From the NCBI RefSeq assembly GCF_000422765.1, contig NZ_AUGR01000002.1:310001-374000 (forward strand): a stretch of 64,000 bases of DNA. The letters run 5' to 3'. The stretch's first letter is position 1; each line of letters begins with the position of its first letter. Below, piece after piece: positions 7,814 through 31,835 of the stretch. The position numbers were made by a program, and so were the translations under genes. This DNA is from Neptunomonas japonica DSM 18939. GTDB lineage: Bacteria; Pseudomonadota; Gammaproteobacteria; Pseudomonadales; Balneatricaceae. The notes beneath the pieces are model-generated. The model had not been told where the DNA came from and did no database searches. It saw only the letters and a program-made list of their open reading frames with translations.

Positions 7814-7860
7814 CCACTGAACCCCTTCCCCTAATCCCTTCACACCACACTTAATACACT
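7814..7860 (+). promoter_or_regulatory. late promoter 1 (activator motif) before lysis operon
   Basis: CCACTGAACCCCTTCC (7814-7829) is the first of three exact copies, the others at 16292 and 31769. Similarity continues as CTAATCCCTT, shared with copy 2. An AT-rich candidate minus-10 (TAATACACT, 7852-7860) follows. No gene lies in 7801-7917. Position just after mor and before the lysis genes equals the Mu lys promoter, which is activated by C. Confidence 0.7.
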
Positions 7861-7917
7861 GCTGACATCACCACTATTGATCTGTGATTTTTTAACAGTT
7901 TTATAAGGAATGTCAGC
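7861..7917 (+). promoter_or_regulatory. inverted repeat flush with holin start codon
   Basis: GCTGACA (7861-7867) and TGTCAGC (7911-7917) are perfect 7-base arms enclosing the leader and the ribosome site TAAGGA (7903-7908). The right arm abuts the ATG at 7918, as in the mor repeat. Pairing of the arms in RNA would bring the ribosome site into a closed loop. Confidence 0.45.
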
Positions 7918-8193
7918 ATGCTTGAAAAACTACCGCGACTCACTATTTGGATTGTCATTGCTATGGCGTTGACTGCCGGTATCGGCTTACTCGCACCACA
8001 CCAGCTCCCTGTTACCCTTTATAAAGTTAGCTTGGTTGTACTAGCCGCAGTGCTAGGTTATTGGGTTGATCGTTCACTGTTCCCCTATGCTCGACCTGAT
8101 AACCCTAAAATTGATTGCAGTAAAAGTACCGCGATGATCCGACGAGCCATTGTCGTGTCGGCTATCATCATCGCCATTGCGCTAGGTGCCTAG
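7918..8193 (+). CDS. putative phage holin
   Basis: 91 residues with three hydrophobic segments (about 8-25, 33-49 and 72-90) and a short charged linker (DRSLFPYARPDNPK). This is the size and topology of a small holin, which forms lesions in the inner membrane to release the lysin. It is the first gene after late promoter 1 and is followed directly by the lysin and spanins. The family identity is by context and topology; the start has a good ribosome site. Confidence 0.75.
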   Translation: MLEKLPRLTIWIVIAMALTAGIGLLAPHQLPVTLYKVSLVVLAAVLGYWVDRSLFPYARPDNPKIDCSKSTAMIRRAIVVSAIIIAIALGA

Positions 8194-8194
8194 T

Positions 8195-8842
8195 ATGCCT
8201 TTGTCACCTAAACTCGTGGCGGCTCTGTTGATGTTGTGGCTTGTTGTGTCTGTGGTCTACATCACACCCGCAAACGCTGCCCAAATCCCTCACGAGTCTA
8301 GTCGCTACCGCAACGAGCTAACCCGCCAAGCACGGTTGATATGGGGTTTAGATGCCCCTATCGCGGTGATGGCGGCACAAGTTCACCAAGAGAGCGCCTG
8401 GAACAAGAGCGCCGTGAGTGCTGTAGGGGCAAAAGGACTTGCCCAATTTATGCCAGGCACAGCACGCTGGATTCCTGCCATTGATAGCCACTTAAAAAAC
8501 CCTCAACCAACTAATCCTACCTGGGCGCTGCGAGCGCTCGCTCGTTATGATTTTTGGCTCTATTCCCGCCTTAAAGCCGACACCCACTGCGACCGCTGGG
8601 CGTTCACATTGAGTGCGTATAACGGTGGTTTAGGCTGGGTGCTACGTGACAAAAAAGCCGCTAACGCTGCCGGTGATAGCCGCTGGTTATGGTGGGCCAA
8701 TGTTGAGAAACATAACGCGGGCCGCTCTATTGCTAACTTCAATGAGAACCGAGGTTACTCACGTCGTATTTTATTGTTATTAATGCCCCGCTACCAAAAG
8801 GCCGGATGGGGCCAAGACGTATTTTGTAGAGGTGTAATGTGA
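8195..8842 (+). CDS. SLT-domain lytic transglycosylase, phage lysin
   Basis: About 215 residues. An N-terminal hydrophobic segment ending PANAAQ near residue 30 looks like a signal or signal-arrest sequence. The SLT domain follows with QVHQESAWNKSAVS (catalytic Glu in HQES), GAKGLAQFMPGTA and the FTLSAYNGG motif. It cleaves the peptidoglycan glycan strand during lysis. The start is ATG 8195; a GTG at 8186 overlapping the holin stop is the alternative. Its stop overlaps the GTG start of the spanin gene. Confidence 0.85.
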   Translation: MPLSPKLVAALLMLWLVVSVVYITPANAAQIPHESSRYRNELTRQARLIWGLDAPIAVMAAQVHQESAWNKSAVSAVGAKGLAQFMPGTARWIPAIDSHLKNPQPTNPTWALRALARYDFWLYSRLKADTHCDRWAFTLSAYNGGLGWVLRDKKAANAAGDSRWLWWANVEKHNAGRSIANFNENRGYSRRILLLLMPRYQKAGWGQDVFCRGVM

Positions 8843-9384
8843 CCCTTAAAAACCAATTATTCAGCATCCTTTTTATCGCGTTTCTCTGCTCTATCGGCGG
8901 CTATTTGTATGGCTACAGCACTGCTAATGAGGCCCACGAGGCCCAGCAATCTAAAGCCATTGCCGCCGTAGAGCAGACCTTACGTAAGCATTACCAGCAA
9001 CAGCTCACCACGGCCAACGAGAGTGTTGCTCAGTTACGCCAACAAAAAGCCGCGTTGGCCAAAACAGCCACCGAACTAGAACGGAGAATCGCCCATGTAT
9101 CGCGCCCTGATTGCGTTATCAATAATGGTTTTGTCGGGTTGTACAACCGCGCCATCGGTGCAGATTTGCCCACCGACTCAATTGCCCCCGGAGCTGATCG
9201 AACGCCCAGCGCCACCCAAACCGCTGATTCATCAAAGTATGACACCACCGTTAGCGATGTTAACCAGCAAGACATTCTGCGCCATGTCATTGAGTACGGT
9301 GAGCGGTGCCAGGCTGTTGAAACCCAGCTTATCCAGCTGATCGAATTTGAAGAGAAAATGAATGAATCACGAAGAGCGCCTTGA
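8839..9384 (+). CDS. inner-membrane spanin (Rz-like)
   Basis: 181 residues from a GTG that overlaps the lysin stop. One N-terminal membrane segment (residues about 7-26), then a long coiled coil (about 30-90) rich in Gln, Ala and Lys, as expected for an i-spanin that spans the periplasm. It links to the outer-membrane spanin encoded inside it in another frame and disrupts the outer membrane in the last lysis step. The C-terminal part continues to an ESRRAP tail overlapping the next gene. Confidence 0.8.
   Translation: MTLKNQLFSILFIAFLCSIGGYLYGYSTANEAHEAQQSKAIAAVEQTLRKHYQQQLTTANESVAQLRQQKAALAKTATELERRIAHVSRPDCVINNGFVGLYNRAIGADLPTDSIAPGADRTPSATQTADSSKYDTTVSDVNQQDILRHVIEYGERCQAVETQLIQLIEFEEKMNESRRAP
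9095..9340 (+). CDS. outer-membrane spanin lipoprotein (Rz1-like), nested
   Basis: 81 residues read in a different frame wholly inside the i-spanin gene. The N-terminus is a lipoprotein signal with lipobox LSGC (Cys16), followed by a proline-rich stretch (PPTQLPPELIERPAPPKP), the hallmark of Rz1 proteins. Full nesting of Rz1 in Rz is the lambda-type arrangement. The last 30 residues are probably unconstrained, since they share DNA with the i-spanin. Confidence 0.8.
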   Translation: MYRALIALSIMVLSGCTTAPSVQICPPTQLPPELIERPAPPKPLIHQSMTPPLAMLTSKTFCAMSLSTVSGARLLKPSLSS

Positions 9385-9571
9385 AGTCGCCAGTGCAACG
9401 ATGCAAGCCGATATAGACAAGCAAGCCAATGCTATTAGTCAAACCTTTACGGGTGAATCGGCCACCCATTGTGTTGATTGTGGAGAGCCGATACCGGAAG
9501 CGCGGCGAGCAGCACTACAAGGTGTGGAGTTGTGCGTGAGCTGTAAACAACGGAGCGAGTGGCATGGATAA
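9362..9571 (+). CDS. DksA/TraR-type C4 zinc finger protein
   Basis: 69 residues. Cys37, Cys40, Cys58 and Cys61 form the C4 zinc finger (CVDC and CVSC) of the TraR/DksA family. TraR-like proteins insert into the RNA polymerase secondary channel and mimic DksA with ppGpp, shifting host promoters. Small members are a standard item between lysis and terminase genes in Mu-like phages. It overlaps the spanin by 23 bases and the next gene by 8. Confidence 0.85.
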   Translation: MNHEERLEVASATMQADIDKQANAISQTFTGESATHCVDCGEPIPEARRAALQGVELCVSCKQRSEWHG

Positions 9572-9875
9572 GTACGATTACAACGCGCTGAAATTTTATT
9601 TAGATATGGCGCAATGGGTAGCGACGCTATTACTGGGTGTATTTATGTGGGTCGACAAACGTCGGCGCGATAACACCAGTGGTATCGATAAGCTTAATAG
9701 CAACCACGTATCACTAGAGCGCCGTGTTGTAACGGTTGAAGAACATTTACGCCATGCACCCACTCATGAAGATATAGCCGCACTGCGTGAACAAAATGCA
9801 GCACTGCAAAGCAAGCTAGATAGGGTGACGAATACTCTGGATCGTATACACGACTATTTAATGAATAAGGGGTGA
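9564..9875 (+). CDS. DUF2730 family phage protein (Mu gp25-like)
   Basis: 103 residues: an N-terminal membrane segment (about 12-29) followed by a coiled coil (about 40-100). This is the DUF2730 layout found before the terminase genes in Mu-like phages. Its function is unknown; anchoring to the membrane by the N-terminus is inferred. Confidence 0.8.
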   Translation: MDKYDYNALKFYLDMAQWVATLLLGVFMWVDKRRRDNTSGIDKLNSNHVSLERRVVTVEEHLRHAPTHEDIAALREQNAALQSKLDRVTNTLDRIHDYLMNKG

Positions 9876-9877
9876 TC

Positions 9878-10171
9878 ATGCCGTTTAAGCAAAAGGAAAC
9901 CGAAGATCAGCGGTTGGTTGTTCTGCGTAGTCTGATCGACTTTGGTTATTCCGCTAATGAATCCATCATTCAAGATTTCCTTGAAATGTTTGGCCACACG
10001 GTAAGCCGTGACAAAGTGCGTTCTCATTTCGCCTGGCTGGATGAGCAAGGTCTTATTACATATGAAGATGTGCTCGGTTGTTATGTCGCCAAATTGACCG
10101 CACGTGGTCAAGATGTTGCGGAAGGGCGTGTACTGGTGCCAGGTATTAAGAAGCCTCGTGCGGGAGCCTGA
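9878..10171 (+). CDS. VpaChn25_0724-type winged-helix phage protein (gp26-like)
   Basis: 97 residues from ATG 9878, chosen over GTG 9872 because AAGGGG (9867-9872) is the ribosome site. It matches the small family of Mu-like phages with the pattern LRSLIDFGYSANESII, FGHTVSRDKVRSHFAWL and LTARGQDVAEGR, an ArsR-like winged helix. Always located just before the terminase small-subunit-like gene. Role unknown. Confidence 0.8.
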   Translation: MPFKQKETEDQRLVVLRSLIDFGYSANESIIQDFLEMFGHTVSRDKVRSHFAWLDEQGLITYEDVLGCYVAKLTARGQDVAEGRVLVPGIKKPRAGA

Positions 10172-10172
10172 G

Positions 10173-10745
10173 ATGGCCGAAAAAAGAACGCGTGGTCGTC
10201 GCTCTAAAATCGACGTGTTACCAACAGATATCAAAGCCGCGCTTAATTCTATGTTGCGCGATGGGCAGCTAGATCAGCAAGAAATCCTAACCATTGTTAA
10301 TGACTATATAGAAGAAGCAGGGTTAGAGGATGCGGCTAAGTTATCGCGCTCTGGGCTCAATCGTTATGCCAGCAAAATGGAAGGTATGGGCGCTCGTATT
10401 AGACAATTGCGCGAAGTGTCCGAAGTGTGGGTGGCTAAACTGGGCACAGCACCAACGTCTGACGTAGGCAAAATGCTGCAGGAGATAGTCCGTACGTTGG
10501 CGACCGAGACAGGCCTTGCAATGAGTGAATCCGATAAGCCCATCGAGCCAAAAGTACTGGGGCAGTTGGCACTTGTCGCACAGCGTGTAGAACAAGCCGC
10601 TATGGCCAGCCATAAACGTGAAACCGAGATTCGCACCGCCTTTGCTGAAGAAGCTGCGAATGCAATGGAAGAAGTGGCCAAGAGCCAAGGCTTAACCCGT
10701 GACGGAGTTAAGGCGATCAAGCAACAGATACTGGGGATTGTGTAA
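10173..10745 (+). CDS. DUF3486 protein (Mu gp27-like), likely small terminase
   Basis: 190 residues from ATG 10173. It begins with a basic segment (MAEKRTRGRRSKID) and is otherwise helical, as in the DUF3486 family that occupies the small-terminase position next to the Mu gp28 large subunit. Likely recognises phage DNA ends for headful packaging. Its stop overlaps the terminase start by one base (TAATG). Confidence 0.85.
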   Translation: MAEKRTRGRRSKIDVLPTDIKAALNSMLRDGQLDQQEILTIVNDYIEEAGLEDAAKLSRSGLNRYASKMEGMGARIRQLREVSEVWVAKLGTAPTSDVGKMLQEIVRTLATETGLAMSESDKPIEPKVLGQLALVAQRVEQAAMASHKRETEIRTAFAEEAANAMEEVAKSQGLTRDGVKAIKQQILGIV

Positions 10746-12331
10746 TGACGATCCTCGACCAGCCCCTTGGCTCGATAGCCGATCAGAACCTTAAAGATCT
10801 TCAACAGTTTGATGCAGCTGAAGTCTTACTGGGTTACCAGAAACGCTGGATCGCGGATGAGTCACCGCTCAAGATTGCCGAGAAGTCACGCCGTACCGGT
10901 TTAACCTGGGCCGAAGCGGCTGATGCTACCTTGTGCGCTGCTACCGCTAAAAGCGAAGGTGGCTGTAACCACTTTTATGTCGGCTCTAACAAAGAGATGG
11001 CCCGCGAATTTATCGAAGCCGCCGCCATGTGGGCCAAGGCATTTGATAAAGCAGCTGGTGAGATCCGCGAAGAGATCTTTATTGATGCCGGTAAAGACGG
11101 CAAAGAGATCCTCACCTTCGTGGTTAACTTTGCGTCTGGTTTTAAAGTACAAGCGCTTAGCTCCAACCCTGCTAACTTACGAGGTATGCAAGGGAACGTC
11201 ACTATAGATGAAGCCGCCTTTCATGATCGTCTCGCCGAGGTACTCAAAGCCGCATTAGCCCTCACCATGTGGGGCAGTAAAGTACGGCTTATCTCCACCC
11301 ACAACGGTGTGGACAACTTATTTAATACCCTGATTCAAGATAGCCGTGCGGGGCGTAAGCGTTACTCGGTGCATACCATCACGTTAGATGATGCCTGTAA
11401 CGAAGGGCTCTATCAGCGCATATGCCAAATAACCCGCAAAGTGTGGAGCCAAGAAGCCGAGGATCAATGGAAGGCTGATCTACTACGCGATACGGCTACA
11501 GAAGAAGACGCACTAGAAGAGTACTACTGCACGCCTAAGCAGGGCGGTGGTGCCTATATCAGTCGTGGCTTGATTGAACGCGCTATGCATCCAGAAAACC
11601 TGGTCATTGCTTTTGAGTCCCCCAAAGACTTTGAGAAGTGGCCAGTGATCCAACGTGAAGCTGAAATAAACGAGTGGCTAGAGGAACACGTAGCGCCGTT
11701 TTTGGCACTGCTAAACCCCGATAATAACCATGTGTTCGGGGAGGATTTTGCGCGCAAAGGCGATCTATCCATCTTTGCCGTGGGTGCCATTCAGCCGGAT
11801 ACCCGCATTCGTGCGCCGTTTCATTTAGAGCTGCGCAATGTGCCCTACAGCCAGCAAGAACAGATCATGTTCTACGTGATCAATAACTTACCACGCTTTA
11901 CCGGTGCTGCCTTTGATGCCACGGGTAACGGTGGATCACTGGCCGAGAAGGCCGCTGATAAATACGGCACTGAAATGATCGAGCAAGTGATGCTTAACCA
12001 GCCGTGGTACCGCGAGTGGATGCCTAAGCTCAAAGCCAAGTTTGAAGACAACGACATCGAGATTCCAAAGTCATTAGATGTGGTCAGTGACCTGCGCAAA
12101 ATCGTGGTGAACCGTGGCATACCGCAAATCGAAAAAGGCTCAGGTACCGGTGAGGATGGCAAGCAGCGCCACGGCGATAGTGCGGTGGCTTACGCGATGA
12201 TCGTGAGGGCATCGTATATGGAAGGCGCGCCCATTGAATTCACTCCCTTGCCCGATCGGCACGGTGGCAGTGGTGATCCAGACGATGACGACTATCAAGA
12301 CAATAACGATTACAAAGGCGGTGCCTGGTAA
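10745..12331 (+). CDS. phage terminase large subunit (Mu gp28-like)
   Basis: 528 residues. The N-terminal ATPase has a Walker A variant near residues 45-57 (EKSRRTGLTW) and VTIDEAAF as Walker B near 155. The C-terminal nuclease part begins around FGEDFARKGD (near 330). It cuts and pumps phage DNA, with host flanks as in all Mu-like phages, into the prohead through the DUF935 portal encoded next. Length is normal for the family. Confidence 0.93.
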   Translation: MTILDQPLGSIADQNLKDLQQFDAAEVLLGYQKRWIADESPLKIAEKSRRTGLTWAEAADATLCAATAKSEGGCNHFYVGSNKEMAREFIEAAAMWAKAFDKAAGEIREEIFIDAGKDGKEILTFVVNFASGFKVQALSSNPANLRGMQGNVTIDEAAFHDRLAEVLKAALALTMWGSKVRLISTHNGVDNLFNTLIQDSRAGRKRYSVHTITLDDACNEGLYQRICQITRKVWSQEAEDQWKADLLRDTATEEDALEEYYCTPKQGGGAYISRGLIERAMHPENLVIAFESPKDFEKWPVIQREAEINEWLEEHVAPFLALLNPDNNHVFGEDFARKGDLSIFAVGAIQPDTRIRAPFHLELRNVPYSQQEQIMFYVINNLPRFTGAAFDATGNGGSLAEKAADKYGTEMIEQVMLNQPWYREWMPKLKAKFEDNDIEIPKSLDVVSDLRKIVVNRGIPQIEKGSGTGEDGKQRHGDSAVAYAMIVRASYMEGAPIEFTPLPDRHGGSGDPDDDDYQDNNDYKGGAW

Positions 12332-13923
12332 TGAGCAACCGATTAATAGACATCAATGGCAACCCGTTGGCATGGCCGAGCGAGAATGAGCTACAGACCG
12401 ATGAATCTAAACTTAGTCATCTACAAAAGCATTTTGCCGAACACCCCAGCAGTGGTTTAACACCGTCACGTTTGGGCAGCATCATGCGCGAAGCCGAGCA
12501 AGGCAACATCATTGCACAGTCTGATTTAGGCGAAGATCTAGAAGAGAAAGACGCCCATATATTCAGTGAGCTGCAAAAGCGCAAACTAACCCTGTTAACG
12601 ATTACCGGTAGCGTTGAGCCGTGCCGTAATGCCTCCGAGTCAGAAAAGAAAGATGCCGCCTTAGTGCAAGAGCTCTTGGATGAGATCCCCGACTTTGAAG
12701 ATGTGGTCACCGATATGGCCGATGCAATCTTAAAAGGCTTTTCAAATATCGAGCTGGAATGGGCGCAGTGGGGCAGTAGCTGGTTAATTAATGCCGCTCA
12801 CTACCGCCCACAAAACTGGTTTCAATTACACCCCGATAATCGCAACGAAATACGCCTGCGTGATAATAGCCACGAAGGTGCAGAACTGCAGCCCTTTGGC
12901 TGGGTTAAGCATATCCACCGCTCTAAATCGGGCTACCCAGGGCGCAATGGATTAACCCGTGTACTGGCGTGGCCATTCCTGTTTAAGAATTACAGCGTGC
13001 GTGATCTGGCCGAGTTTTTAGAGATCTACGGTTTACCGCTGCGCCTGGGTAAATACCCCGCCGGTGCCAGCGATAAAGAGAAAAGCACCTTGCTGCAGGC
13101 GGTGATGAGCATAGGTCATAATGCTGGCGGCATTATCCCCAAAGGTATGGAGATCGAATTTCAAGAAGCCGCTAAAGGTGCCAGCTCTCCTTACGAAGCC
13201 ATGATGAATTGGTGCGAACGCTCTCAATCAAAAGCCATATTGGGCGGTACACTCACCAGCCAAGCGGATGGTAAAAGCAGCACTAACGCATTGGGCAATG
13301 TACATAACGAAGTACGCCAAGAGCTACGCGATAGTGATTTACGCCAACTGGCCAGCACAATCACACGCGATATTGTTTACCCGCTATGGATGCTTAATGG
13401 CCGTGCTGCCGGTGATCCACGTCGCCACCCTAAGTATGTATTTGATACTAGTGAGCCGGAAGATATCGCCACCTACAGCGAACGTTTGCCAGGCTTGGTA
13501 TCGCTGGGTATGCGTATTCCACAAGCCTGGGCGCATGAAAAACTGATGATTCCAGAAGCTGAGAAAGACGAACCGATTTTAGGTATGCCTCAACAACCAG
13601 CACCGGAAGATGACAAAAAAGCCGCTAAAGCTACTGATAAACAAGAAACACCCGACGCTAAACTGGCCGCCCTCAAAGCGCAAGAAACCGCTGATGTGGT
13701 GGAGGCTTACGTTAGCCAGCTACAGTCTACCGCCAACAAAGCCACCACAGAGATGATCGACCAGATCAAAACCTTAGTGGATAACGCCGCCTCATTAGAG
13801 GAGATACGCGAGGGCTTGCTGGCATTAGACATGCCGGTTGATCAATTAGCCGATGCCATGAGCCAAGCACTGTCAGCCGCCAGCTTAGCGGGCCGTTATG
13901 AGCTGCTGCAGGATGCACAATAA
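12331..13923 (+). CDS. DUF935 portal protein (Mu gp29-like)
   Basis: 530 residues of the DUF935 family. Conserved sections include ILKGFSNIELEW near 130, YGLPLRLGKYPAGAS near 235 and GGTLTSQADGKSS near 305. It forms the dodecameric portal vertex through which DNA enters and leaves the head. A low-complexity, Lys/Ala-rich linker lies near residues 420-445, before a helical C-terminal region. One-base overlap (TAATG) with both neighbours. Confidence 0.92.
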   Translation: MSNRLIDINGNPLAWPSENELQTDESKLSHLQKHFAEHPSSGLTPSRLGSIMREAEQGNIIAQSDLGEDLEEKDAHIFSELQKRKLTLLTITGSVEPCRNASESEKKDAALVQELLDEIPDFEDVVTDMADAILKGFSNIELEWAQWGSSWLINAAHYRPQNWFQLHPDNRNEIRLRDNSHEGAELQPFGWVKHIHRSKSGYPGRNGLTRVLAWPFLFKNYSVRDLAEFLEIYGLPLRLGKYPAGASDKEKSTLLQAVMSIGHNAGGIIPKGMEIEFQEAAKGASSPYEAMMNWCERSQSKAILGGTLTSQADGKSSTNALGNVHNEVRQELRDSDLRQLASTITRDIVYPLWMLNGRAAGDPRRHPKYVFDTSEPEDIATYSERLPGLVSLGMRIPQAWAHEKLMIPEAEKDEPILGMPQQPAPEDDKKAAKATDKQETPDAKLAALKAQETADVVEAYVSQLQSTANKATTEMIDQIKTLVDNAASLEEIREGLLALDMPVDQLADAMSQALSAASLAGRYELLQDAQ

Positions 13924-15206
13924 TGCCAGGCGTTGCAGAGTACGGAAGCCGCCCGTTTAAAGAAGCCATCGACTACTTTAATCAAAAACTACCCTTGCCC
14001 AACACCGGCTGGCAAGACGTCTACGGCCAACAGCACGACCATGCCTTTATGGTGGCCGGTGCGAATAAAACATCCATCATCGAGGGCTTTGCTAATGCAC
14101 TACAAGGGGCGATTGAGGGTGGCGAGACACTGCAAGACTTTCGCAAGCGGTTCGATTCCATCGTTCAAAAACAAGGCTGGGATTACAACGGGAGTCGTAA
14201 CTGGCGTAGTCGTCTCATTTACGAGACGAACATCAGGCAGGCATACAATGCAGGGCGAGAAGCACAGATGGCCGATCCGGCATTCCAGAAGCAGTTTCCC
14301 TATAAGGAGTACCGTCATAGTGGCGCAGAGCACTACCGGCCTCAACATAAAAGCTGGGACAGGTTACTCTTATTAGCGAATGATCCATGGTGGCAAGTAC
14401 ACAGCCCGTCCAATGGCTATGGCTGTAAATGCAAAGCATTCCCCAGATCCGAGCGCTGGATGCAACGCAACGGTAAAACACTGCCGGACCAAGCACCCGC
14501 TGATGCGTTTAAAGAGTTCCTAGATAAGCGCACCGGCGAACTTAAGCAAATCCCGCTGGGTATTGATCCAGGCTTTGAGCATCGCCCTGGTGCAAGTTGG
14601 TTGCGCCACGCCACGCTCAAACCGACAGAGCTGCCGACGGTTAAGCCTATACCCATTGGGCCAGCCGCTAAGCCACCGCTACCTGCGCCCACTGCTGTGC
14701 CAGAATCTGTATTGATGGCGGATGGCCTCGCTGATGAGATCTACGTTAAAGCCTTTCTGGATGAGTTCGGTGCTACGGGTGCGATGGTGTTTAAAGACGT
14801 TCAAGGCGAAGCGATAGCCATTAATGATTATCTGTTTCGTGATGCCAGCGGGCAGTACAAGGTTAGTAAAGATAAAATACGTCACCGCTATATTCGATTA
14901 TTGGCTAGGGCGTTAATTGCACCAGATGAAGTTTGGGCGTTGCTAGAACCAGATCAAGTACGCCCAGGTAAATATAAGCTCAAACGTCGCTATATTGCTC
15001 GCTGGGTTGTTGAAGAGTCAGGGCAGGCGGTGCATGGCTTTAGTGCGTTTGAATACGGTGGCGGGGCGTGGACGGGTAGTACGGCATTTACGCCATACAG
15101 TACCAGGAAAGGTAAGCGAGTACCGCAACGAGACAGTTATCTGCAAAAACAGCGTGCAGGCGTATTGTTGTATCGCAAAGAAGAAAACAAAAACGAGAAT
15201 AAATAA
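13923..15206 (+). CDS. gpF-like head morphogenesis protein with C-terminal PBECR-type nuclease domain
   Basis: 427 residues. The first 230 are the Mu F/gp30 head-morphogenesis domain, with RLIYETNIRQAYNAGREAQ and the NGYGCKCKAFP cysteine motif near 165. A proline-rich linker (residues about 235-262) leads to a C-terminal domain of about 150 residues with a conserved end (STAFTPYST, then QKQRAGVLLY). This resembles the phage Barnase-EndoU-ColicinE5/D-RelE-like nuclease domains (PBECR2 type) known on the tails of Mu F proteins. The family match is from memory. The protein is probably packaged in few copies; a toxic or RNase role after ejection is inference. Confidence 0.85.
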   Translation: MPGVAEYGSRPFKEAIDYFNQKLPLPNTGWQDVYGQQHDHAFMVAGANKTSIIEGFANALQGAIEGGETLQDFRKRFDSIVQKQGWDYNGSRNWRSRLIYETNIRQAYNAGREAQMADPAFQKQFPYKEYRHSGAEHYRPQHKSWDRLLLLANDPWWQVHSPSNGYGCKCKAFPRSERWMQRNGKTLPDQAPADAFKEFLDKRTGELKQIPLGIDPGFEHRPGASWLRHATLKPTELPTVKPIPIGPAAKPPLPAPTAVPESVLMADGLADEIYVKAFLDEFGATGAMVFKDVQGEAIAINDYLFRDASGQYKVSKDKIRHRYIRLLARALIAPDEVWALLEPDQVRPGKYKLKRRYIARWVVEESGQAVHGFSAFEYGGGAWTGSTAFTPYSTRKGKRVPQRDSYLQKQRAGVLLYRKEENKNENK

Positions 15207-15208
15207 AA

Positions 15209-15300
15209 GAGGTAGGTAGATCGCCCCGTCGTTCTACCTCACTACTGGTTCTTAGGGCGCACCTCGGAGTGCTATAGGCCAGTAAGCGTACCCACAGTAT
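15209..15300 (+). other. structured gap between gpF-like and gpG-like genes
   Basis: GAGGTAG (15209-15215) pairs with CTACCTC (15234-15240), and CTGG (15245-15248) with a CCAG near 15280 encloses GCAC and GTGC. The 104-base gap is otherwise non-coding. It could be an RNA element between head genes; no T-run follows. Confidence 0.35.
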
Positions 15301-15310
15301 AGGACATGAC

Positions 15311-15778
15311 ATGGCCGGAACTCAAACCAACATCAGCATTGATTACGACAGCCAAGCTGTTACCACCGTACTAGATCGGCTCATTGCTAACGTGAGCGAT
15401 ACACAACCGGCCATGATTGAAATAGCCGAATACCTGCACGAACGCACCCGCGATCACTTCGACAACCAGCAAGATCCAGACGGCACCCCATGGGCACCAC
15501 TGGCCCCATCCACACTAAAAGCCAAGCAGCGCAAAGGCGTACCGGTGGATAAAATACTCCACGGCCAGCACCTGCACCTGCGTGATACCATCTTCCCGTT
15601 TTGGAGCAATAACGAAGCAGGTGTTAGCACCGGCCCAGGCACAGAAGCCTATGCGGCTACTCAGCAGTTTGGTGCTGACGAAAGGAGTATAGAAGCACGA
15701 CCCTTTTTAGGGGTAAACGCAGAGGATGAGACAGAGGTAATCGAGATCATGAATCAGTTTTTGACTGGCGGTTTATGA
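15311..15778 (+). CDS. virion morphogenesis protein (Mu gpG-like)
   Basis: 155 residues of the gpG/virion morphogenesis family: EYLHERTRDHFDNQQDPDGTPWAPL near 38-62 and the ARPFLGVNAEDE end. In Mu, gpG takes part in head-tail assembly. It closes the first late operon; the AT-rich gap and accessory gene that follow separate it from the protease gene. Confidence 0.88.
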   Translation: MAGTQTNISIDYDSQAVTTVLDRLIANVSDTQPAMIEIAEYLHERTRDHFDNQQDPDGTPWAPLAPSTLKAKQRKGVPVDKILHGQHLHLRDTIFPFWSNNEAGVSTGPGTEAYAATQQFGADERSIEARPFLGVNAEDETEVIEIMNQFLTGGL

Positions 15779-15886
15779 GATATTTGTGATTATTGGGAGA
15801 GAGTCAGTTTCAGTTTTAGCATAAGTAGTCTTTAATAATATTAAAAGAGTAGGCTTTTATATTTTAGTTTTTAAAAGGAAGAATTT

Positions 15887-16117
15887 ATGCTGTATACATG
15901 GAATATCGAATTCAAGCGAGTGGACAATATCTACAACATACAGGTTGAGCGTTCAGAAAAGCCACATGACAACCTTGTTGCCAGTATCATAATAAATCAT
16001 TTGCGCAATAACGAATCAGAAACGTTGCTGTCTTCATCTGTACGTGGAGCATCATTTTCTGATCAACTAATTGAGTATAAGGTGGAGTCAGTAGAAACAA
16101 CTAAAGTTTCTTTATAA
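15887..16117 (+). CDS. small AT-rich accessory protein (moron candidate)
   Basis: 76 residues with ribosome site AAAAGGAAG (15873-15881). It lies in a clearly AT-rich stretch (15779-16290) between two GC-richer late operons. Alternating polar and hydrophobic residues suggest a small beta-sheet protein. No family recognised. Base composition and position fit a moron, a gene carried for the host or for superinfection exclusion, but that is inference. Confidence 0.55.
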   Translation: MLYTWNIEFKRVDNIYNIQVERSEKPHDNLVASIIINHLRNNESETLLSSSVRGASFSDQLIEYKVESVETTKVSL

Positions 16118-16291
16118 GCTTTAGACTAGCTGCTTGTAAGCTGTTTTAAGGCGCTTTGTTGATATAGAAGGCTGTTGATACGTATTTAGTCTGAAAAGGA
16201 TTTCTAACGCGGGTCTAACGGGGTTTGTTGGTGTTTTGTTAGGGTTTGTGGACGTCGATTTACCATAAGTTTTTAGATTTAAGGCTGTAAC

Positions 16292-16344
16292 CCACTGAAC
16301 CCCTTCCTCTAATCCCTTGCCGCTAGATTCCTTAATCTGGCGGC
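16292..16344 (+). promoter_or_regulatory. late promoter 2 and start-flush hairpin before protease gene
   Basis: CCACTGAACCCCTTCC (16292-16307) is the second exact copy of the late motif, followed by CTAATCCCTT as in copy 1. Then GCCGC-T-AGATT (16319-16329), loop CCTT, and AATCT-G-GCGGC (16334-16344) make an 11-bp stem with one T-G pair. The stem ends at the base before ATG 16345, and its right arm contains the candidate minus-10 TAATCT. This matches the Mu PI promoter position. The region 16118-16291 holds nothing else I can name. Confidence 0.65.
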
Positions 16345-17460
16345 ATGAAGACATCAAGCCCTTACCCTCTTGCAGTATTAAGTACCACACCCGAACCGGT
16401 GGCGGTGCTTTCGCTCGACCTAAACTCAGATGATAACGGCTGGCAGCAGCTTTTACCCGCGGGCAAGTTTCGTGCTGTCGATGGTCGCCCGTTTGATGTG
16501 CCAGGTAATCACTGGTTTATCGATGCGGAGGTGGCTAACCAGCTGATCATGCTGGCTAATGAACGTCTGAATGATCTCGTCATTGACTACGAACACCAAA
16601 CTCTAAAAGCTGAAGAGAACGGTCTGCCAGCACCCGCTGCTGGTTGGTTTAAAACAATGGAATGGCGCGAAGGTTCCGGTTTATGGATTAAACCTCAGTG
16701 GACGCCTCGCGCTACCGACTTCATTAAAAACGGCGAGTACAAATACCTGTCCGCTGTTTTCCCTTACGACGCTACCACCGGATGCCCATTGCGGCTGCAT
16801 TCGGCTGCGCTGGTAAACCGCCCTGGCATTGATGGCATGCAAGCCGTTGAAGCGTTGGCGGCGCTTTCTCTTTCTAACCCCACTCTTGACCCTAATAAAA
16901 CGGAGCATTCTATGGATGAGCTATTAAAAGCAATGCTGGCACAGCTTGGCATTGTTGTTGAAGACGGCAAAGCACCCGATAACGCTGCTGTATTGGCTGC
17001 ACTCAGTGAGCTGCAAACCAAAGCAGGCTCAGCTGAGACGCTAGCCACCGAAGTGGTCGCCCTTAAAGCGGGCAACACGCTTCCGATTGTAGATCCAGCC
17101 AAGTATGTACCGGTTGAAGCTGTACATCAGTTACATGCTCAGATTGCGGTGCTATCGGCTGAAGGGGCTTCCACGCAGCTGGATCAGGTTATCGATAAAG
17201 CCAAACAAGAAGGCCGACTCGTTCCAGCGATGGAAGCCTGGGCGCGTGATCTGGGTAAGCAAGATCTGGCAGCCCTGCAATCCTTCCTGGATAAGTCACA
17301 ACCCATTGCAGCATTAGCGGCCATGCAGACTAATGGCAAAAAGCCGGATGCAGATAACACCGACCCACTGGCCACCCTCAGCGCAGATGAAAAATCCATG
17401 TGCTTAGCCATGGGTATCCCTGAAGAAGACTTCCTCAAAACCAAGAAAGGTGATGCGTAA
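16345..17460 (+). CDS. phage prohead protease and scaffold (Mu gpI-like)
   Basis: 371 residues. The N-terminal half (to about 185) is the Mu I protease: DYEHQTLKAEENGLPAPAAGW carries the family's conserved His, followed by KYLSAVFPYD. The C-terminal half is an acidic, helical scaffold like Mu Z. The protease cuts the scaffold and itself during head maturation. The start has no strong ribosome site and sits directly after the hairpin of late promoter 2, so it may be leaderless or structure-controlled. Confidence 0.88.
   Translation: MKTSSPYPLAVLSTTPEPVAVLSLDLNSDDNGWQQLLPAGKFRAVDGRPFDVPGNHWFIDAEVANQLIMLANERLNDLVIDYEHQTLKAEENGLPAPAAGWFKTMEWREGSGLWIKPQWTPRATDFIKNGEYKYLSAVFPYDATTGCPLRLHSAALVNRPGIDGMQAVEALAALSLSNPTLDPNKTEHSMDELLKAMLAQLGIVVEDGKAPDNAAVLAALSELQTKAGSAETLATEVVALKAGNTLPIVDPAKYVPVEAVHQLHAQIAVLSAEGASTQLDQVIDKAKQEGRLVPAMEAWARDLGKQDLAALQSFLDKSQPIAALAAMQTNGKKPDADNTDPLATLSADEKSMCLAMGIPEEDFLKTKKGDA
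16912..17460 (+). CDS. internal scaffold protein start (Mu gpZ-like), same frame as protease
   Basis: An in-frame ATG at 16912 lies 6 bases after CGGAG (16901-16905), exactly where the protease domain ends and the acidic helical scaffold begins. Starting here gives 182 residues (MDELLKAMLAQLGI...). In Mu, scaffold Z is made from an internal start in gene I, and this copy keeps that design. Use of the start is inferred from the ribosome site and the domain boundary. Confidence 0.65.
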   Translation: MDELLKAMLAQLGIVVEDGKAPDNAAVLAALSELQTKAGSAETLATEVVALKAGNTLPIVDPAKYVPVEAVHQLHAQIAVLSAEGASTQLDQVIDKAKQEGRLVPAMEAWARDLGKQDLAALQSFLDKSQPIAALAAMQTNGKKPDADNTDPLATLSADEKSMCLAMGIPEEDFLKTKKGDA

Positions 17461-19243: not shown

Positions 19244-19245
19244 CC

Positions 19246-20855: not shown

Positions 20856-20860
20856 GCATC

Positions 20861-23901: not shown

Positions 23902-23904
23902 CCG

Positions 23905-26031: not shown

Positions 26032-26033
26032 TC

Positions 26034-27674
26034 ATGCCGACCACGTATGTAACCAAACAAGTCTCAAAACTGGTGGCTGAGAATATCGCACTGGCTGCTC
26101 CTAGCTTCACTTTTGCCGCTTCTCATGGCGCAGGAACTCTAGCACCTAGCGGTACAAATGTAGTCACCGTCGCCACAGCAAACAGCAGCCTAAAACCTGA
26201 CCTGTTTTTTCATGTGCCTAACAACATTGTCGGTGAAATAATATTCAGCTTTGCTGATAGAACTTACGTTACCGTAGATGGCATTGTTTATATCAGTTTC
26301 GATACGATAACGGGGGTTGGTACAGCCGCCGGAGCCTTTGATCGTGCCAGCGGCATTATTAAATTATCGGGCAATGTGCCTAGCAGCTATTATCTGTATA
26401 AGAACCCTATTTTTAAAATTATCAGCATGACCGTGGATGAGTTCTCAAGTAATAAACGCCCTGCAGGCCATATCTCTTTCAGAACATCCATATCTAACGT
26501 GAATTCCAGCTCATTGCAGATACGCGGTAGCCGCTATCAAATTCAGCAAGTAGCCGCTTTAGACGAGAACTCTGACGCGTTTAACACCGAAGACTTTACC
26601 GCTGAAACCGCTTTCACTGTCACGGTTGATGTGGCCACCAATATGCTTATTGGTGATGTTCAAGTCGATGGTGACTTTGATGGCGCTAACGGTACGGTGA
26701 CGATATTCGGCCTGAATGGCTGGGTAATTGATCCCGACTCCATCCGCTATGATGCCGTATCTGAAGTGCGTATGCCGATGAACGCAGAGCTATTAGGGCT
26801 TAATCCTGTACGCCTACCCTCTACCGGAAAAGTCCCCGTGATTAATAACGGGGACACGTTAGTGATTTTTAACGAAGAGGATCAAGTCGTGGTGCCGGTA
26901 GCTGGTGCAACGGTGAGTTGTGGGCGCATTGATGTGGCGTTAATGGAAGTGATCGACTCCCAGGGCTTAAGATTGGACTATCACCAGTACAGCGTTGACC
27001 GTGACTTAGGTGAGCTGACCTTTGAAGATCCATTATCGCTTGTTGATATATCAACCAATACATTAATTGGCCCCTACAAGCTGGTTAACCGTATCGAGAA
27101 CATGCGCTTGGCAAGCAACGTAGATATCACGGGCAACGTGTCAGTAACGGCACCGCCTGACCGCGACTTCCCTGCAGGTTCACAAGTGGCCAGTGCCCTT
27201 GTGTGGGGTGATACGGGCGCGCGGGTATTTAACTTTTTTCACCAGGAGAGCTGGAATTCAGGCTCGCCGGTTTGGTCAGATGCACGTATTGGCGATGACA
27301 CAACAGCCAAATATGACGCAATCAATAATCCGTTTGAGGTCGTCAATAAAGGCTCAATGTCGGAACGCTGGACGATTCGTTTTATCAGCTCAACCGGTAT
27401 CCAAGTGATAGGAGAAAAGCTCGGTGTCGTGTTAGACAACCATTCTATCTCTCTTGCTAATAACGATATTGCACCGATCAACCCCTCTACAGGCTCACCG
27501 TATTTTATTATCAGACAAGTGGGCTTTGGCACAGGCTGGGTCACTAATAATGTGATTCGCTTTAACACTGATGGCGCAAATCAGAACATGTGGGCGATAC
27601 GCACAACGCAACCAGGCGCAGCAACCGAAAACAAAGACGCGATAGAGATTGAAGTACGCGGAGATGCTAACTAA
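26034..27674 (+). CDS. tail tip structural protein
   Basis: 546 residues, beta-rich with a TFAASHGAGTLAPSG start and a near-C-terminal section on line with VRFISSTGIQVIGEKLG. It has no recognisable enzyme motif. It begins 2 bases after the previous stop and overlaps the next start by one base, so it belongs to the same tip operon. Function beyond structure unknown. Confidence 0.6.
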   Translation: MPTTYVTKQVSKLVAENIALAAPSFTFAASHGAGTLAPSGTNVVTVATANSSLKPDLFFHVPNNIVGEIIFSFADRTYVTVDGIVYISFDTITGVGTAAGAFDRASGIIKLSGNVPSSYYLYKNPIFKIISMTVDEFSSNKRPAGHISFRTSISNVNSSSLQIRGSRYQIQQVAALDENSDAFNTEDFTAETAFTVTVDVATNMLIGDVQVDGDFDGANGTVTIFGLNGWVIDPDSIRYDAVSEVRMPMNAELLGLNPVRLPSTGKVPVINNGDTLVIFNEEDQVVVPVAGATVSCGRIDVALMEVIDSQGLRLDYHQYSVDRDLGELTFEDPLSLVDISTNTLIGPYKLVNRIENMRLASNVDITGNVSVTAPPDRDFPAGSQVASALVWGDTGARVFNFFHQESWNSGSPVWSDARIGDDTTAKYDAINNPFEVVNKGSMSERWTIRFISSTGIQVIGEKLGVVLDNHSISLANNDIAPINPSTGSPYFIIRQVGFGTGWVTNNVIRFNTDGANQNMWAIRTTQPGAATENKDAIEIEVRGDAN

Positions 27675-29035
27675 TGGCGATCCCTGATTCATGGTTAGTG
27701 CGTCACTACAGAGGGGTTACCAACCCTGGGAACACGTTATTAACTGATGAGACAGGAGGTCATAACGCTACCGTTTACGGGAATCCTGATTCTAGCCACA
27801 CTGATAGAGGCGCCGCCTTCGATTTTGACGGAGTAGATGATTATTTAGCGGGGTTTGGCTCTGGCGTGTTTATGGATGCTCTGAGCTTATGGATTTACTT
27901 TCCAAACGATATAACAGCAAGCACAACAACGGTTCCCATTGGCGCTGTTTATCCTCAGTCGGGGGGCATGGGTGGAGGCGTGCTGTCTTCAAATATCTCA
28001 GGGGAAACGTTGTGGATTGGTAATTATCCTTCATCTTCTTTGTTTAGATTTCGGTGGTGTAGCGGCGTTGTTGGTAGCGGATGGCGAAATATTGTTTTTA
28101 ATTGGAATGGGGCCGATTACGATATTTGTGTTGATGGTATAACAAGAGCTACATCAACCTATATGAACGGTTCGCAAGCTACGCTAGAGGGGCGTCAGTT
28201 GATCGATGATCTGCAAATAGGCAAGAGCGCATTTGCGGGTGGTCTATCTAGTCTCTCGGTAGCCAATATAAAAATATTTTCTAACGGAGGATTAGGCTTA
28301 ACGCCTGAGCATCTTCTTGATGTTTATAATGATGCTGTATCTCACGAAATCACAGGCGAAGTTTCCAAGGATGGGCAGCCGGTAATAGCTGATATAAGGA
28401 TATACAACGCATCTTCTGGTGCGCATTTAACCACTGTTGCCTCTGATTCGTCGGGCCATTATTCCGCCCCGCTAGGTAATAATGAGCCTGTCTACCTAAT
28501 GGCTACCCCACCAATAGGTTATAGCCCTGAGATACGCGGCGCTATTACGCCAGAAATCCCGCCCGCAGGCGCACCTGTTGATATCGCATTTGTTCCATTA
28601 GCTGAACCCCTTGAATATCACGCGTGGGTACGTGGAACTGTCACCAAGTACAATGAACCTGTTGCGTTAAAAGTGACGGCCTTTGCTGTTTTGGGCTCCC
28701 CAAAGATAGTGGGTGAAGCCACTACCGACCCATTAACGGGCATGTATGAAATCGATGTGGCGCCGCATACCGGTGAAGTAATGGTCGTTGCAGCAATGGA
28801 CTATGGCGCGCAGTGGTCGCCTAATATGCTGATACAGCACGCGGGCAAAGTTATTCATCCAACGGCACACAACCGGCATATCTATGTCTCTTTAGTGCCT
28901 GGCGTATGTGGCAGCGTAGAGCCTAATTGGCCGACCAGCGGTAACATCACGTCGGGGGGTGTGATCTTTACGGCACAGCCATTGTTTGAGCCGTTGGCCG
29001 GTGGGTATCTAAAGCCAACCATAGAGCCTAAATAG
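27674..29035 (+). CDS. tail protein with LamG-like lectin domain and Ig-like repeats
   Basis: 453 residues. Residues about 25-220 read as a concanavalin/LamG jelly roll (AAFDFDGVDDYLAGFGSGVFMD). Residues about 230-320 resemble a carboxypeptidase-regulatory-like beta unit (ITGEVSKDGQPVIADIRIYNASSG), and a second such unit follows (VRGTVTKYNEPVALKVTAF). Such modules bind surface glycans or act as spacers in tail fibres. A receptor-binding part is likely. Confidence 0.65.
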   Translation: MAIPDSWLVRHYRGVTNPGNTLLTDETGGHNATVYGNPDSSHTDRGAAFDFDGVDDYLAGFGSGVFMDALSLWIYFPNDITASTTTVPIGAVYPQSGGMGGGVLSSNISGETLWIGNYPSSSLFRFRWCSGVVGSGWRNIVFNWNGADYDICVDGITRATSTYMNGSQATLEGRQLIDDLQIGKSAFAGGLSSLSVANIKIFSNGGLGLTPEHLLDVYNDAVSHEITGEVSKDGQPVIADIRIYNASSGAHLTTVASDSSGHYSAPLGNNEPVYLMATPPIGYSPEIRGAITPEIPPAGAPVDIAFVPLAEPLEYHAWVRGTVTKYNEPVALKVTAFAVLGSPKIVGEATTDPLTGMYEIDVAPHTGEVMVVAAMDYGAQWSPNMLIQHAGKVIHPTAHNRHIYVSLVPGVCGSVEPNWPTSGNITSGGVIFTAQPLFEPLAGGYLKPTIEPK

Positions 29036-30756
29036 TGCCATTACTTATTGCGGGTGCGACTTCTTCCTGGAAGAAGGTTGATGCAGCGGTGAGCGATTGC
29101 ATATCTGCAGGTTACGAAAAAGCAGCTCCCCAAGATAAAGCGCCATCAATGGCGTGGGTAAAGCCTGTGCCAAAACAAGCGCTAAATGGCTTGGCATATA
29201 AGCCTATTCCGAAAATTGATACTGGTACAAAATTGGTATTTGGCTCGATTATCAAAGCTATTGATAAGCAAACCCTGCACCCTGTAACGGCTATTTATCA
29301 GACAGATAACACCGATGGGCTAGCTTACGGTGATGTAATCCACCCCAATGATTTACAGGCGCTCACCCCGTTTTATGGCGCGCTACCGGCTAAAGACCGT
29401 GTACGAGCGCATCATTACCACGCCGTCTACCGGTTCAAGAGCAAGCCTGTACGGGTTGCTTATGAGTTTTACATTCCGTCCTTTAATTTTGAATACGCCG
29501 CATCACCCGCGAAGTTAACGTTTAACTTTACCGATCCAGATACAAAAGAACCTTATACGCTACCGTCGCCCGTCGATTCAAGTAGCGAGGCTCCTTGGGA
29601 TCACACCCGCAAAGTCGATATCTACAACAACACTAAGTACGGCCATTCACGCCATCGTTCCATCATTGCTGGCCCATACCGCACTGTGTTTTTAGTGCCC
29701 GAACCTGAGCCAGTAGACCCCGATCCAGACCCAACCGACCCGCCCGTCGTAGAGAAGGTAGTCCATGTTATGAACATTGTTAATTTAGTCTCGCTGCCGG
29801 ATCTAACACCGATAGCTTTTAGCAAGGCAACGCTCAGCCGCGATATCGACTCGTACGCCTGGACGCTCAACGCTAGTCTAATGAATCAAACCAGTGTTGA
29901 TCTTATTTCACCACGGGGCGGCATGATTAAAGAAATAAGGCTCACCATCAATGGCGATGTGTGGGAGTTCTTTGTCTCTAAAATCAGCGAGACAGAGCGC
30001 TTTGCGAATAAGACATGGACAGTGGTGGCCTACAGTAAAACCAAGCTGCTCTCATCACCCTACAGCGTACAAAAAACACATACCGAAACCAGCGGCTCAA
30101 CCGCCGCACAGATAGCCACTAACGAACTGTTTGGTACAGGCTTTACACTCAACTGGAGCGCGGTGGATTGGTCGATCCCAGCCAACGTATTCAGCTATAG
30201 CGCCAAAGCACCCATTGCATCAGTGTTAAGCCTAACCAATGCGATTAGTGCAGTGATCGCTCCGCACCCCGCTAACAATGAGTTAACGGTTAAACCGCGC
30301 TTCACTCATTCGGCATGGCACTGGGATACCGCCACAGAAGACCGCACCATCCCGCGTGCCCTGTTTAGCGAGATGTCAGAAGAGTATCAGCCCCAAATCA
30401 AATACAACGCCGTGTACGTGGCCGGTCAAGAATATGGCGCATTGGCTAAAGTAAAGCAGCTCGGCACGGCAGGCAATAGTTTGTTGCCTGACATCGTGGA
30501 TAACTTGCTCACGGATGCTATCGCTAACACGGAGCGTGGCCGCATCGAACTCTCTAAATCAGGTCATAAAGAAGTATTCAGCGGGCGTATATTCTACGAT
30601 CAAGCCACAGGCTTTGTGGATATCGGAGAGCTAATCAAGATCGTAGCCAGCGATGGCTCAAGTTGGAAAGGCGTTGCCACCGCTAACAGTATCGCTATCT
30701 CTAAAATGGGGGCGGTGGTCTATCAAAACCTAAGTATACTGAGGCACTACGAATGA
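29035..30756 (+). CDS. tail tip/hub protein with proline-rich linker
   Basis: 573 residues from a GTG overlapping the previous stop. The first 220 residues are one globular part; a Pro-Asp-Glu linker (PEPEPVDPDPDPTDPP, near 222-238) separates it from a C-terminal part that looks like a baseplate-hub fold (VNLVSLPDLTPIAFSKATLSRDID, IKEIRLTINGDVWEFFVSKI). The C-terminal half resembles hub proteins of D3112-type tails. The linker suggests a fusion of two genes that are separate in other phages. Confidence 0.6.
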   Translation: MPLLIAGATSSWKKVDAAVSDCISAGYEKAAPQDKAPSMAWVKPVPKQALNGLAYKPIPKIDTGTKLVFGSIIKAIDKQTLHPVTAIYQTDNTDGLAYGDVIHPNDLQALTPFYGALPAKDRVRAHHYHAVYRFKSKPVRVAYEFYIPSFNFEYAASPAKLTFNFTDPDTKEPYTLPSPVDSSSEAPWDHTRKVDIYNNTKYGHSRHRSIIAGPYRTVFLVPEPEPVDPDPDPTDPPVVEKVVHVMNIVNLVSLPDLTPIAFSKATLSRDIDSYAWTLNASLMNQTSVDLISPRGGMIKEIRLTINGDVWEFFVSKISETERFANKTWTVVAYSKTKLLSSPYSVQKTHTETSGSTAAQIATNELFGTGFTLNWSAVDWSIPANVFSYSAKAPIASVLSLTNAISAVIAPHPANNELTVKPRFTHSAWHWDTATEDRTIPRALFSEMSEEYQPQIKYNAVYVAGQEYGALAKVKQLGTAGNSLLPDIVDNLLTDAIANTERGRIELSKSGHKEVFSGRIFYDQATGFVDIGELIKIVASDGSSWKGVATANSIAISKMGAVVYQNLSILRHYE

Positions 30757-30977
30757 ACGTATTCTCACGATTCAAAGCCCTTATTGGTAGCGCCAACAAT
30801 GAGCTGGTGAACATTACCGCCAACAATGGAGACGGTACCAGCACCGGCACAACCCTCGCCGGTAATACGGTAGTGGTGAAAGGCGAGAGTGTCAGTGCTG
30901 GGAATAGAGCGCTAGTGAGAGATGGAGAGGTGGTTAGGCAGATGCCTGGGCTAGTGGTGATTGAGGTGGATGTTTAG
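30753..30977 (+). CDS. small tail protein
   Basis: 74 residues, ATGA overlap with the hub gene. A compact beta pattern (DGTSTGTTLAGNTVVVKGESVSAGNRALVRDGEV) with no signal. Likely a small component of the tail tip; unknown otherwise. It ends the tail operon before the minus-strand accessory segment. Confidence 0.6.
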   Translation: MNVFSRFKALIGSANNELVNITANNGDGTSTGTTLAGNTVVVKGESVSAGNRALVRDGEVVRQMPGLVVIEVDV

Positions 30978-30985
30978 ATTATGGA

Positions 30986-31428
30986 CTCGTGTATTATTCA
31001 GAGCAAATCTGCCAATATCGCCAAGCTTTCATTCATATATAAATCAACTAAAGCTCCCCCCCATTAGAGCTAAGCGCCTGCTATCGGCATGTAAAGCTAG
31101 ATATACTTCTTTTAGCAGTTCGCACCATTCTGTGGGAAGCTCGTCTGCCACTTTGGTAACTGTCGTGATACTTGAGGTGGATAATACTCTTCCTCTAATT
31201 CGTCATACTCAGAAAAGTAGAATTGACGTTGAAGTGATATGTTTTCGCAACCGTAGCACTCCGGCATTTTATAAGTAGTTTTCCAGCGGACTTCATACCG
31301 ACAATATGAATCTCTGGGGCGGCTAATTCACTTTCCGAGTTAACACGTTCTGCGACAATAAAGTGCTTGGTTTCATGTAGGTACTGATTGCGGTGGGACT
31401 TTGTAACGCTAAATTTTTCATTACTCAT
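30986..31428 (-). pseudogene. decayed DUF4145 gene
   Basis: On the minus strand the intact N-terminus runs 77 codons from ATG 31428, then the frame is lost. The DUF4145 signature is readable only by changing frame: CYGCENISLQRQFYF and EEEYYPPQVSRQLPKW in one, LPTEWCELLKEVYLALHADS in the next, then ALVDLYMNE and LGDIGRF in two more. A G-run (GGGGGGG on the minus strand, near 31058-31064) is one likely slip site. At least three frame changes make it a clear pseudogene. Intact family members are small helical proteins often carried on mobile elements; their function is not well known. Confidence 0.75.
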
Positions 31429-31440
31429 CTGATAATCTTA

Positions 31441-31725
31441 CTAATTTTTCATATCGAAATGATAAGACGTTATGGCCTCTGCATTTGATGAAAATCTTTC
31501 AATGGCTTCATCTAAATATGGCTGTGCATATTTTCCTGGATATAGATTTCCCGCTAGTAAATGCATGGCCTCTTTAAAATCATCATAATGAATTTGATAG
31601 CCATGCACTTCGTAAGCATTTTTAAGTGCTTGATGGAACCTGCTGTAATCTGAGGGATGTGTGGTAAGCCAAGTGTCTACTTGCATCCAAGGCTTAAGTG
31701 ATTCGGCTAACTTCTCTATATTCAT
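31441..31725 (-). CDS. small minus-strand accessory protein, unknown
   Basis: 94 residues, opposite in direction to all phage late genes and AT-rich compared with them. Helical, with aromatic and His residues (AYEVHGYQIHYDDFKEAMHLLAG). No family recognised. It lies just upstream of the decayed DUF4145 gene on the same strand (12-base gap), so the two formed one accessory cassette. Being the intact half, it could have its own role in host fitness or phage exclusion; that is inference. Confidence 0.55.
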   Translation of the reverse strand: MNIEKLAESLKPWMQVDTWLTTHPSDYSRFHQALKNAYEVHGYQIHYDDFKEAMHLLAGNLYPGKYAQPYLDEAIERFSSNAEAITSYHFDMKN

Positions 31726-31768
31726 AACAACCCCATTGTTTAAGAACTCAATATCCGACCAATATAGA

Positions 31769-31835
31769 CCACTGAACCCCTTCCTGTAAGCCTATGAGCG
31801 CGCAGCTGATTAAATAGATTCTGCCGAATTTAATT
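31769..31835 (+). promoter_or_regulatory. late promoter 3 before fibre genes
   Basis: CCACTGAACCCCTTCC (31769-31784), third exact copy of the late motif, 81 bases before the ATG at 31850. A dyad ATTAAAT (31809-31815) and ATTTAAT (31829-31835) follows and includes a minus-10-like TTAAATAGATT. This promoter would restart late transcription after the opposite-strand accessory cassette, and is the only visible candidate for driving com-mom. Confidence 0.65.

Follow-up and report, generated by a model that had tools for sequence, protein, structure and literature searches.

A 64,000-nucleotide stretch of the Neptunomonas japonica DSM 18939 genome (contig NZ_AUGR01000002.1, positions 310,001 to 374,000; hereafter the window) carries a Mu-like prophage in which a 16-base motif, CCACTGAACCCCTTCC, precedes the late operons. 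From evidence that is sequence-based throughout, we conclude that the prophage's Mor/C-type transcriptional activator very probably uses this motif as its operator. In the mechanism that we propose, a Mor dimer would bind a dyad within the motif, centered ~43.5 bases upstream of the RNA start, and would activate the host sigma-70 RNA polymerase at promoters that have a −10 element but only a degenerate −35 element. A single Mor protein would in this way switch on the lysis, head, and fiber operons, with RNA starting ~38 bases after the motif. At the head operon, and in 25 of 39 families of related sites, the start codon would lie at or within two bases of the RNA start, giving a leaderless message. 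There is also an inverted repeat with its left arm upstream of the RNA start or spanning it; this repeat would fold only in RNA begun upstream, and the late genes would therefore be translated mainly from late-promoter messages. Taken as a whole, this account, in which Mor operator, late promoters, leaderless start, and gating act together, is likely to be correct; its parts are graded separately below. The features concerned, all on the + strand, are as follows (offsets with a plus sign are counted after the motif).

7357 to 7800: mor, encoding a Mor/C-family activator of 147 amino acids, with its recognition helix around DRWVW.
7814 to 7829: putative operator copy 1, lysis operon, exact motif.
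7855 to 7860: −10-like TACACT at +26 to +31, a spacing fixed across families; RNA start predicted near 7867.
7861 to 7917: inverted repeat GCTGACAT (7861–7868) / ATGTCAGC (7910–7917), directly before the holin ATG at 7918.
7918 to 8193: holin gene, first of the lysis operon (PF13272, phrog_1528), with the Shine–Dalgarno sequence AAGGA.
16292 to 16307: putative operator copy 2, head operon, exact motif.
16318 to 16345: 12-pair inverted repeat TGCCGCTAGATT / AATCTGGCGGCA, around the −10 and reaching the A of the start codon.
16333 to 16338: −10-like TAATCT at +26 to +31, holding the in-frame stop TAA of the protease frame.
16345 to 17460: head protease/scaffold gene I (PF10123, E 4e-110); its ATG at +38 is the predicted RNA start, and it has no Shine–Dalgarno sequence.
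31769 to 31784: putative operator copy 3, fiber-region operon (ATG 31850), exact motif.
31810 to 31816: −10-like TTAAAT/TAAATA at +26/+27; RNA start predicted near 31822.

The three exact copies stand before the lysis, head, and fiber operons, as an initial annotation of this DNA had reported, with 104, 53, and 81 bases from motif start to the next start codon (ATG at 7918, 16345, and 31850, respectively). The further sequence that it saw shared by copies 1 and 2 is CTAATCCCTT, on their 3′ side (7831–7840 and 16309–16318). Allowing ≤3 mismatches, the window holds four matches against a shuffle mean of 0.25; the sole nonexact one is at 12756 on the − strand. The whole genome contains five exact copies, and this search, set beforehand as a check, placed them only in two Mu-like prophages and before late operons: three in the window prophage and two in a second prophage on contig C16, one before the head protease and one before the fiber-region operon. 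The second prophage encodes its own Mor gene, which is followed by the end of the gene that in the window directly precedes the head operon. Its lysis copy is absent along with the lysis-to-portal region that would follow mor (L009 11354–14843). Two of its open frames before the head operator (12303–13676 and 13682–14785) are without a window counterpart.

Beyond this genome, the 16-mer occurs at ≤1 mismatch in 15 of 116 family genomes, with several copies in three (the window's own, G070, and G076) and a single copy in 12. In a class-wide sample of 369 genomes, the exact 16-mer was found only in the window's own genome, so that sampling does not give its host range. The search in related phages that the initial annotation had asked for yielded 49 stretches of viral contigs with the motif, compared with three for the same letters reversed, and 18 of 29 matched viral contigs carry two or three copies, two of these 18 being the two prophages themselves. 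A near-identity search with one viral head locus gave no match in phages and E. coli genomes. Although the letters are identical at all three places, chance or a copying artifact can practically be dismissed as their origin, given that none of 100 shuffles reached four matches, that the flanks are unrelated, that the same site occurs in other phages, and that the reversed letters occurred in three stretches against 49.

The product of mor belongs to the Mor/C family (PF08765, 55.1 bits against a cut-off of 24.9) and matches the late transcriptional activators of phrog_836 (E 6e-37). Its residues D124, R125, and W128 are invariant across 14 aligned relatives, and helices are predicted at 109–119 and 124–133. 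A sequence profile of the protein retrieved Mu C chains at E 5e-4 and 7e-4, and 1rr7 at 0.02. The initial annotation spoke of a single Mor/C-type protein, which holds for the window; the genome encodes a second one, in the second Mu-like prophage. In the order, seven of 293 genomes match a Mor profile.

The association between activator and motif was assessed in viral loci picked by the Mor protein alone (the best 80 of 167 viral relatives). In 62 of 80 loci, the 1.5 kb that follow mor contain the motif at ≤3 mismatches on the sense strand, whereas the same measure gave 0/80 on the opposite strand and 0/80 upstream of mor. Many of these loci are near copies from Pseudomonas phages, and the 62 are therefore not independent events. 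The sites are nevertheless diverse, with 120 sites falling into 39 families at 20% flank divergence. This co-occurrence supports the claim that the motif is the activator site at all three late operons, which we regard as very probably right.

Promoter geometry across the 39 families was regular. A −10 signature, defined by an A in the second and a T in the sixth position of the hexamer, begins at +26 in 23 families and at +27 in nine, and any other offset from +8 to +41 has it in at most seven; a weak CTnA stretch lies between the 16-mer and this signature. For comparison, we took the Mu sites from the annotated record. The four annotated late promoters of Mu have the right half-site ATAA at 14–17 and the −10 from position 42, and the dyad of Mu Pmom, TTAT-GCCCCA-ATAA, is centered at 10.5. 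The center of the motif dyad, GAA-CCCC-TTC, likewise falls at motif position 10.5, and the −10 again comes at 42, which makes the site the positional counterpart of Mu's sites in other letters. As in Mu C promoters, the dyad center lies 31.5 bases upstream of the −10 and there is no good −35. The excerpt of PMC4287176 places the Mor dyad of Mu at −43.5. The Mu half-sites TTAT...ATAA are absent from the motif, and Mu has no exact GAACCCCTTC. The earlier statement that this is not the Mu C site is hence correct as to letters and wrong as to kind, since the motif shares its position and dyad geometry with the Mu C site; the most fitting description is a new operator variant within the Mor/C kind. 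Two other arrangements were tried and rejected. If the AACCCC of the motif is paired with the same letters in Mu PI and PP, the two lie nine bases apart once the −10s are aligned, the dyad centers coinciding instead. Constitutive sigma-70 promoters are not indicated either, as a sigma-70 promoter scan gave no sense-strand match at the three sites; one match lies at 15966, away from the head site.

The 16-mer is a relaxed form (TGAA-CCCC-TTCC) of a dyad TGAA-N4-TTCA. We examined loci picked by the head protease protein (the best 80 of at least 571 relatives), of which 69 are nonredundant. GAA-N4-TTC together with an in-frame ATG at offset 37 to 41 was found in 24 of the 69; all other offsets from 1 to 120 gave 15 matches together and none more than three. 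Some dyad arms are perfect (CTGAA-GCCC-TTCAG, CCGAA-ACCC-TTCGG). Contig names link eight of these 24 dyad loci to their Mor protein, and in each case the helix is of the [D/E/Y]R type. Where the Mor helix is DRH or DRQ, ACTGACACC-type sites occur with unchanged spacing in L132, L149, L158, L162, L164, and L172; in the same helix group the site is less clear in L176, and L161, L168, and L175 have none in the stretch examined. In the Shewanella phage MuM16-1, with a Mu C-type activator and helix TERR, both lysis and protease have GAAACCTTTC, and a −10-like hexamer again stands at +26. We also searched for the best 18-mer shared between the mor and protease regions; of 80 loci, the 56 with enough DNA ahead of the protease were used, and 28 had a Mor gene. 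Eight loci with a [D/E/Y]R helix (five D3112-type) share a GAA-N4-TTC site, and six with a Mu C-like helix share other sites, three of them with ATAAACC; L280 and L292 score about equal to the control. The operator letters thus tend to change with the Mor recognition helix, the co-variation being partial. The initial annotation called the motif a new regulon code: its letters are not Mu's, but it is not private to this prophage, since varied forms occur in D3112-type and many other Mu-like phages.

Several observations weigh against this account or weaken its counts. Besides the near copies among the Mor loci, the strict motif is uncommon in the 80 protease loci (nine at ≤3 mismatches, 19 at ≤4, and none on the opposite strand), and no match at ≤3 mismatches exists in Mu, MuM16-1, or Vibrio ZX4290. 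No shared site emerged from the 18-mer comparison in the R-type-helix loci L324, L098, L314, L333, L335, and L349, and its controls reach up to 16/18. A Foldseek search with the Mor model ranked 1rr7 first, but weakly (E 1.9). Among the 39 families, L050 and L081 are probably chance matches and L122 and L130 have their ATG at +40; all four were kept in the counts. The prophage also encodes other helix-turn-helix proteins, and the motif might serve some other regulator (a host factor or a repressor), with Mor acting elsewhere. This is very unlikely in view of the recovery of the motif from the Mor protein alone in 62 of 80 loci, its place at the Mu C position, and its variation with the Mor helix.

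Autoregulation of mor through the same site, which the initial annotation had proposed from a partial core ACCCCTT at 7317, was not supported. The core is present, but the best full-motif alignment there has six mismatches, and the neighboring place 7324 has five; GAA-N4-TTC is absent from 6701–7400. We rejected this candidate, as its geometry would set the −10 at the mor start codon and upstream sites at ≤3 mismatches are absent from all 80 Mor loci. An inverted repeat, CTGAACAG/CTGTTCAG, immediately precedes the mor ATG at 7327–7356, and the second prophage has a similar repeat ahead of its mor.

The fixed promoter geometry bears on translation through two unexpected features that the initial annotation had missed, an apparently leaderless head-operon start and inverted repeats over the predicted RNA starts. 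A start codon lies at +38 to +40 in 25 of the 39 families (24 ATG and one GTG), and in the 23 families with starts at +38 or +39 the frames run for ≥111 codons or are open to the end of the stretch examined. No Shine–Dalgarno match longer than four bases was found in the 24 ATG families. These families and the window head operon have the layout of a leaderless promoter, with the −10 hexamer six to eight bases before the ATG and no Shine–Dalgarno sequence; at usual −10 spacing, RNA would start on or beside the A of the ATG. The window head start reads TAATCT, GGCGGC, and the ATG at 16345, and the in-frame TAA within the −10 leaves no in-frame start upstream in the window. The annotated protease start of LPB1 is the corresponding ATG. 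The lysis operons of D3112 and LPB1 open likewise, with a 115-residue gene that is unannotated in both records (L094 2895–3242; L093 3088–3435) and whose LPB1 copy matches phrog_3648 from the first residue. The frame opened by the putatively leaderless ATG ahead of the protease spans just 57 codons in the D3112 record (L094 11939–12112), whereas that of LPB1 is open for 368. By their predicted RNA starts, the window lysis and fiber operons would have leaders of ~51 and ~28 bases. We consider it probable that the head protease mRNA and related late mRNAs are leaderless. The head and D3112-type lysis messages might instead have a short leader without a Shine–Dalgarno sequence, their RNA starting further upstream, and the poor −10 letters of GC-rich phages (CACCAT, GACCAT) would fit this. 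Such a leader is unlikely, given an ATG fixed 38 to 40 bases from the motif and six to eight from the −10 in 24 families, and the stop codon inside the window −10 with no in-frame start upstream.

An inverted repeat accompanies these starts. Segments with both arms fold with z-scores of −2.8 (lysis), −3.3 (head), and −3.0 (fiber, read-through) at the window promoters, and the second prophage has the same head stem (z −4.6). In 36 nonredundant leaderless promoters, the stem score beside the start codon averaged 19.3, compared with 15.0 when left arms were swapped between phages (largest of 300, 16.4) and 9.4 when shuffled (largest of 100, 10.6); arm sequences differ between phages, with pairing kept. 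The mean probability that the AUG is unpaired was 0.36 in read-through RNA and 0.77 with RNA starting at the AUG, and it fell below 0.3 in 16 of 36 read-through RNAs versus none of 36 starting at the AUG. Across the 39 families, the read-through segment has z below −2 in 29, and at least six pairs span +38 in 28. The contrast in fold energy, −23.4 versus −5.9 kcal/mol, is partly due to length (76 vs 43 bases). The window lysis promoter scored only z −0.8 in the family-wide segment, as its right arm lies beyond that segment. An Rfam scan gave no match at the three sites.

Whether the repeat is a translational gate, hiding start codons in read-through RNA, we rate at about even chances. At the three window starts the gate looks strong (fiber), moderate (head), and doubtful (lysis). 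Two results tell against it: D3112-type promoters (L139 and L093, also L115 and L127) fold no better than shuffles, and the window lysis AUG is mostly paired even in the predicted late RNA, its first two bases still paired. The repeat may alternatively act on DNA or as a terminator, forming a cruciform, a symmetric operator, or an end signal of the upstream operon, which is a possible though lesser prospect. At the leadered lysis promoters L059, L063, L165, and L171, the repeat surrounds the −10 and stops short of the start codon, and the stems of MuM16-1 and L183 lead into a T run, terminator-like, with the left arm at the RNA start. However, arm letters that differ between phages with pairing kept are ill-suited to an operator of one protein, and most stems in the listed sequences have no T run. 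If the leaderless starts are real, the hairpin rule would be a simple way to prevent premature synthesis of lysis and head proteins from early read-through.

More broadly, many Mu-like phages outside the Mu branch may share one late architecture, in which a readable-code Mor/C dyad is joined by a −10 six to eight bases ahead of the AUG, giving leaderless mRNA from a head, lysis, or baseplate operon, and by a covarying, read-through-only hairpin, and may so enforce timing at both transcription and translation; we put this forward tentatively, at somewhat less than even odds. Leaderless mRNA is usually held to be inefficient in Gram-negative bacteria; if the predicted leaderless starts are real, structural and lysis operons of Gram-negative phages would rely on it. 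The activators and sites form a natural series in which to study how specificity changes in a small helix-turn-helix activator. For a large group of transposable phages, in which general programs otherwise have to guess the late promoters, the operator would also serve for prediction; promoters of D3112/LPB1-type phages were predicted with such programs according to the excerpt of PMC4378225. A literature search by title and abstract, with most subscription journals outside its scope, found no description of the motif or of leaderless late genes in Mu-like phages, and no paper naming the D3112/LPB1-type operator. With the motif letters GAACCCCTTCC as the query, no phage-regulation paper was evident by title among the matches listed.

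Two features lie apart from the late operons. Beyond the prophage, window positions 48702–51660 hold open frames that we take to resemble TerD-type stress proteins. The prophage early region contains a type II hammerhead ribozyme at 4505–4579 on the + strand (Rfam RF02276, 64 bits, E 3e-11).

The proposed late promoters can be set beside four known systems. The leaderless cI message from lambda PRM has the same arrangement as predicted here, a −10, six bases, and then the ATG at the RNA start; PRM serves the repressor in lysogens, whereas the operons here are lytic structural and lysis operons. In the excerpt of PMC3014915 on T4 gene e, the start region is sequestered in a helix of the long early RNA and the late RNA begins within that helix, without its 5′ part, much like the gate proposed here; gene e control depends on a late sigma factor and its messages have leaders, in contrast to an activator and often no leader here. 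The D3112/LPB1-type Pseudomonas phages (Casadabanvirus) have the same operator with two to three mismatches after mor and before the protease, and the same GGCGGC-ATG at +32 to +40, with two sites found against three in the window prophage. Mu itself (Plys, PI, PP, and Pmom with C) likewise uses one PF08765 activator for its lysis, head, and tail operons, with the same 31.5-base interval from dyad center to −10. It differs in its half-sites (TTAT/ATAA vs GAA/TTC here), in having separate Mor and C where the window prophage has one protein, and in a gene I leader of ~26 bases by annotated positions, where the window head ATG lies at the predicted RNA start.

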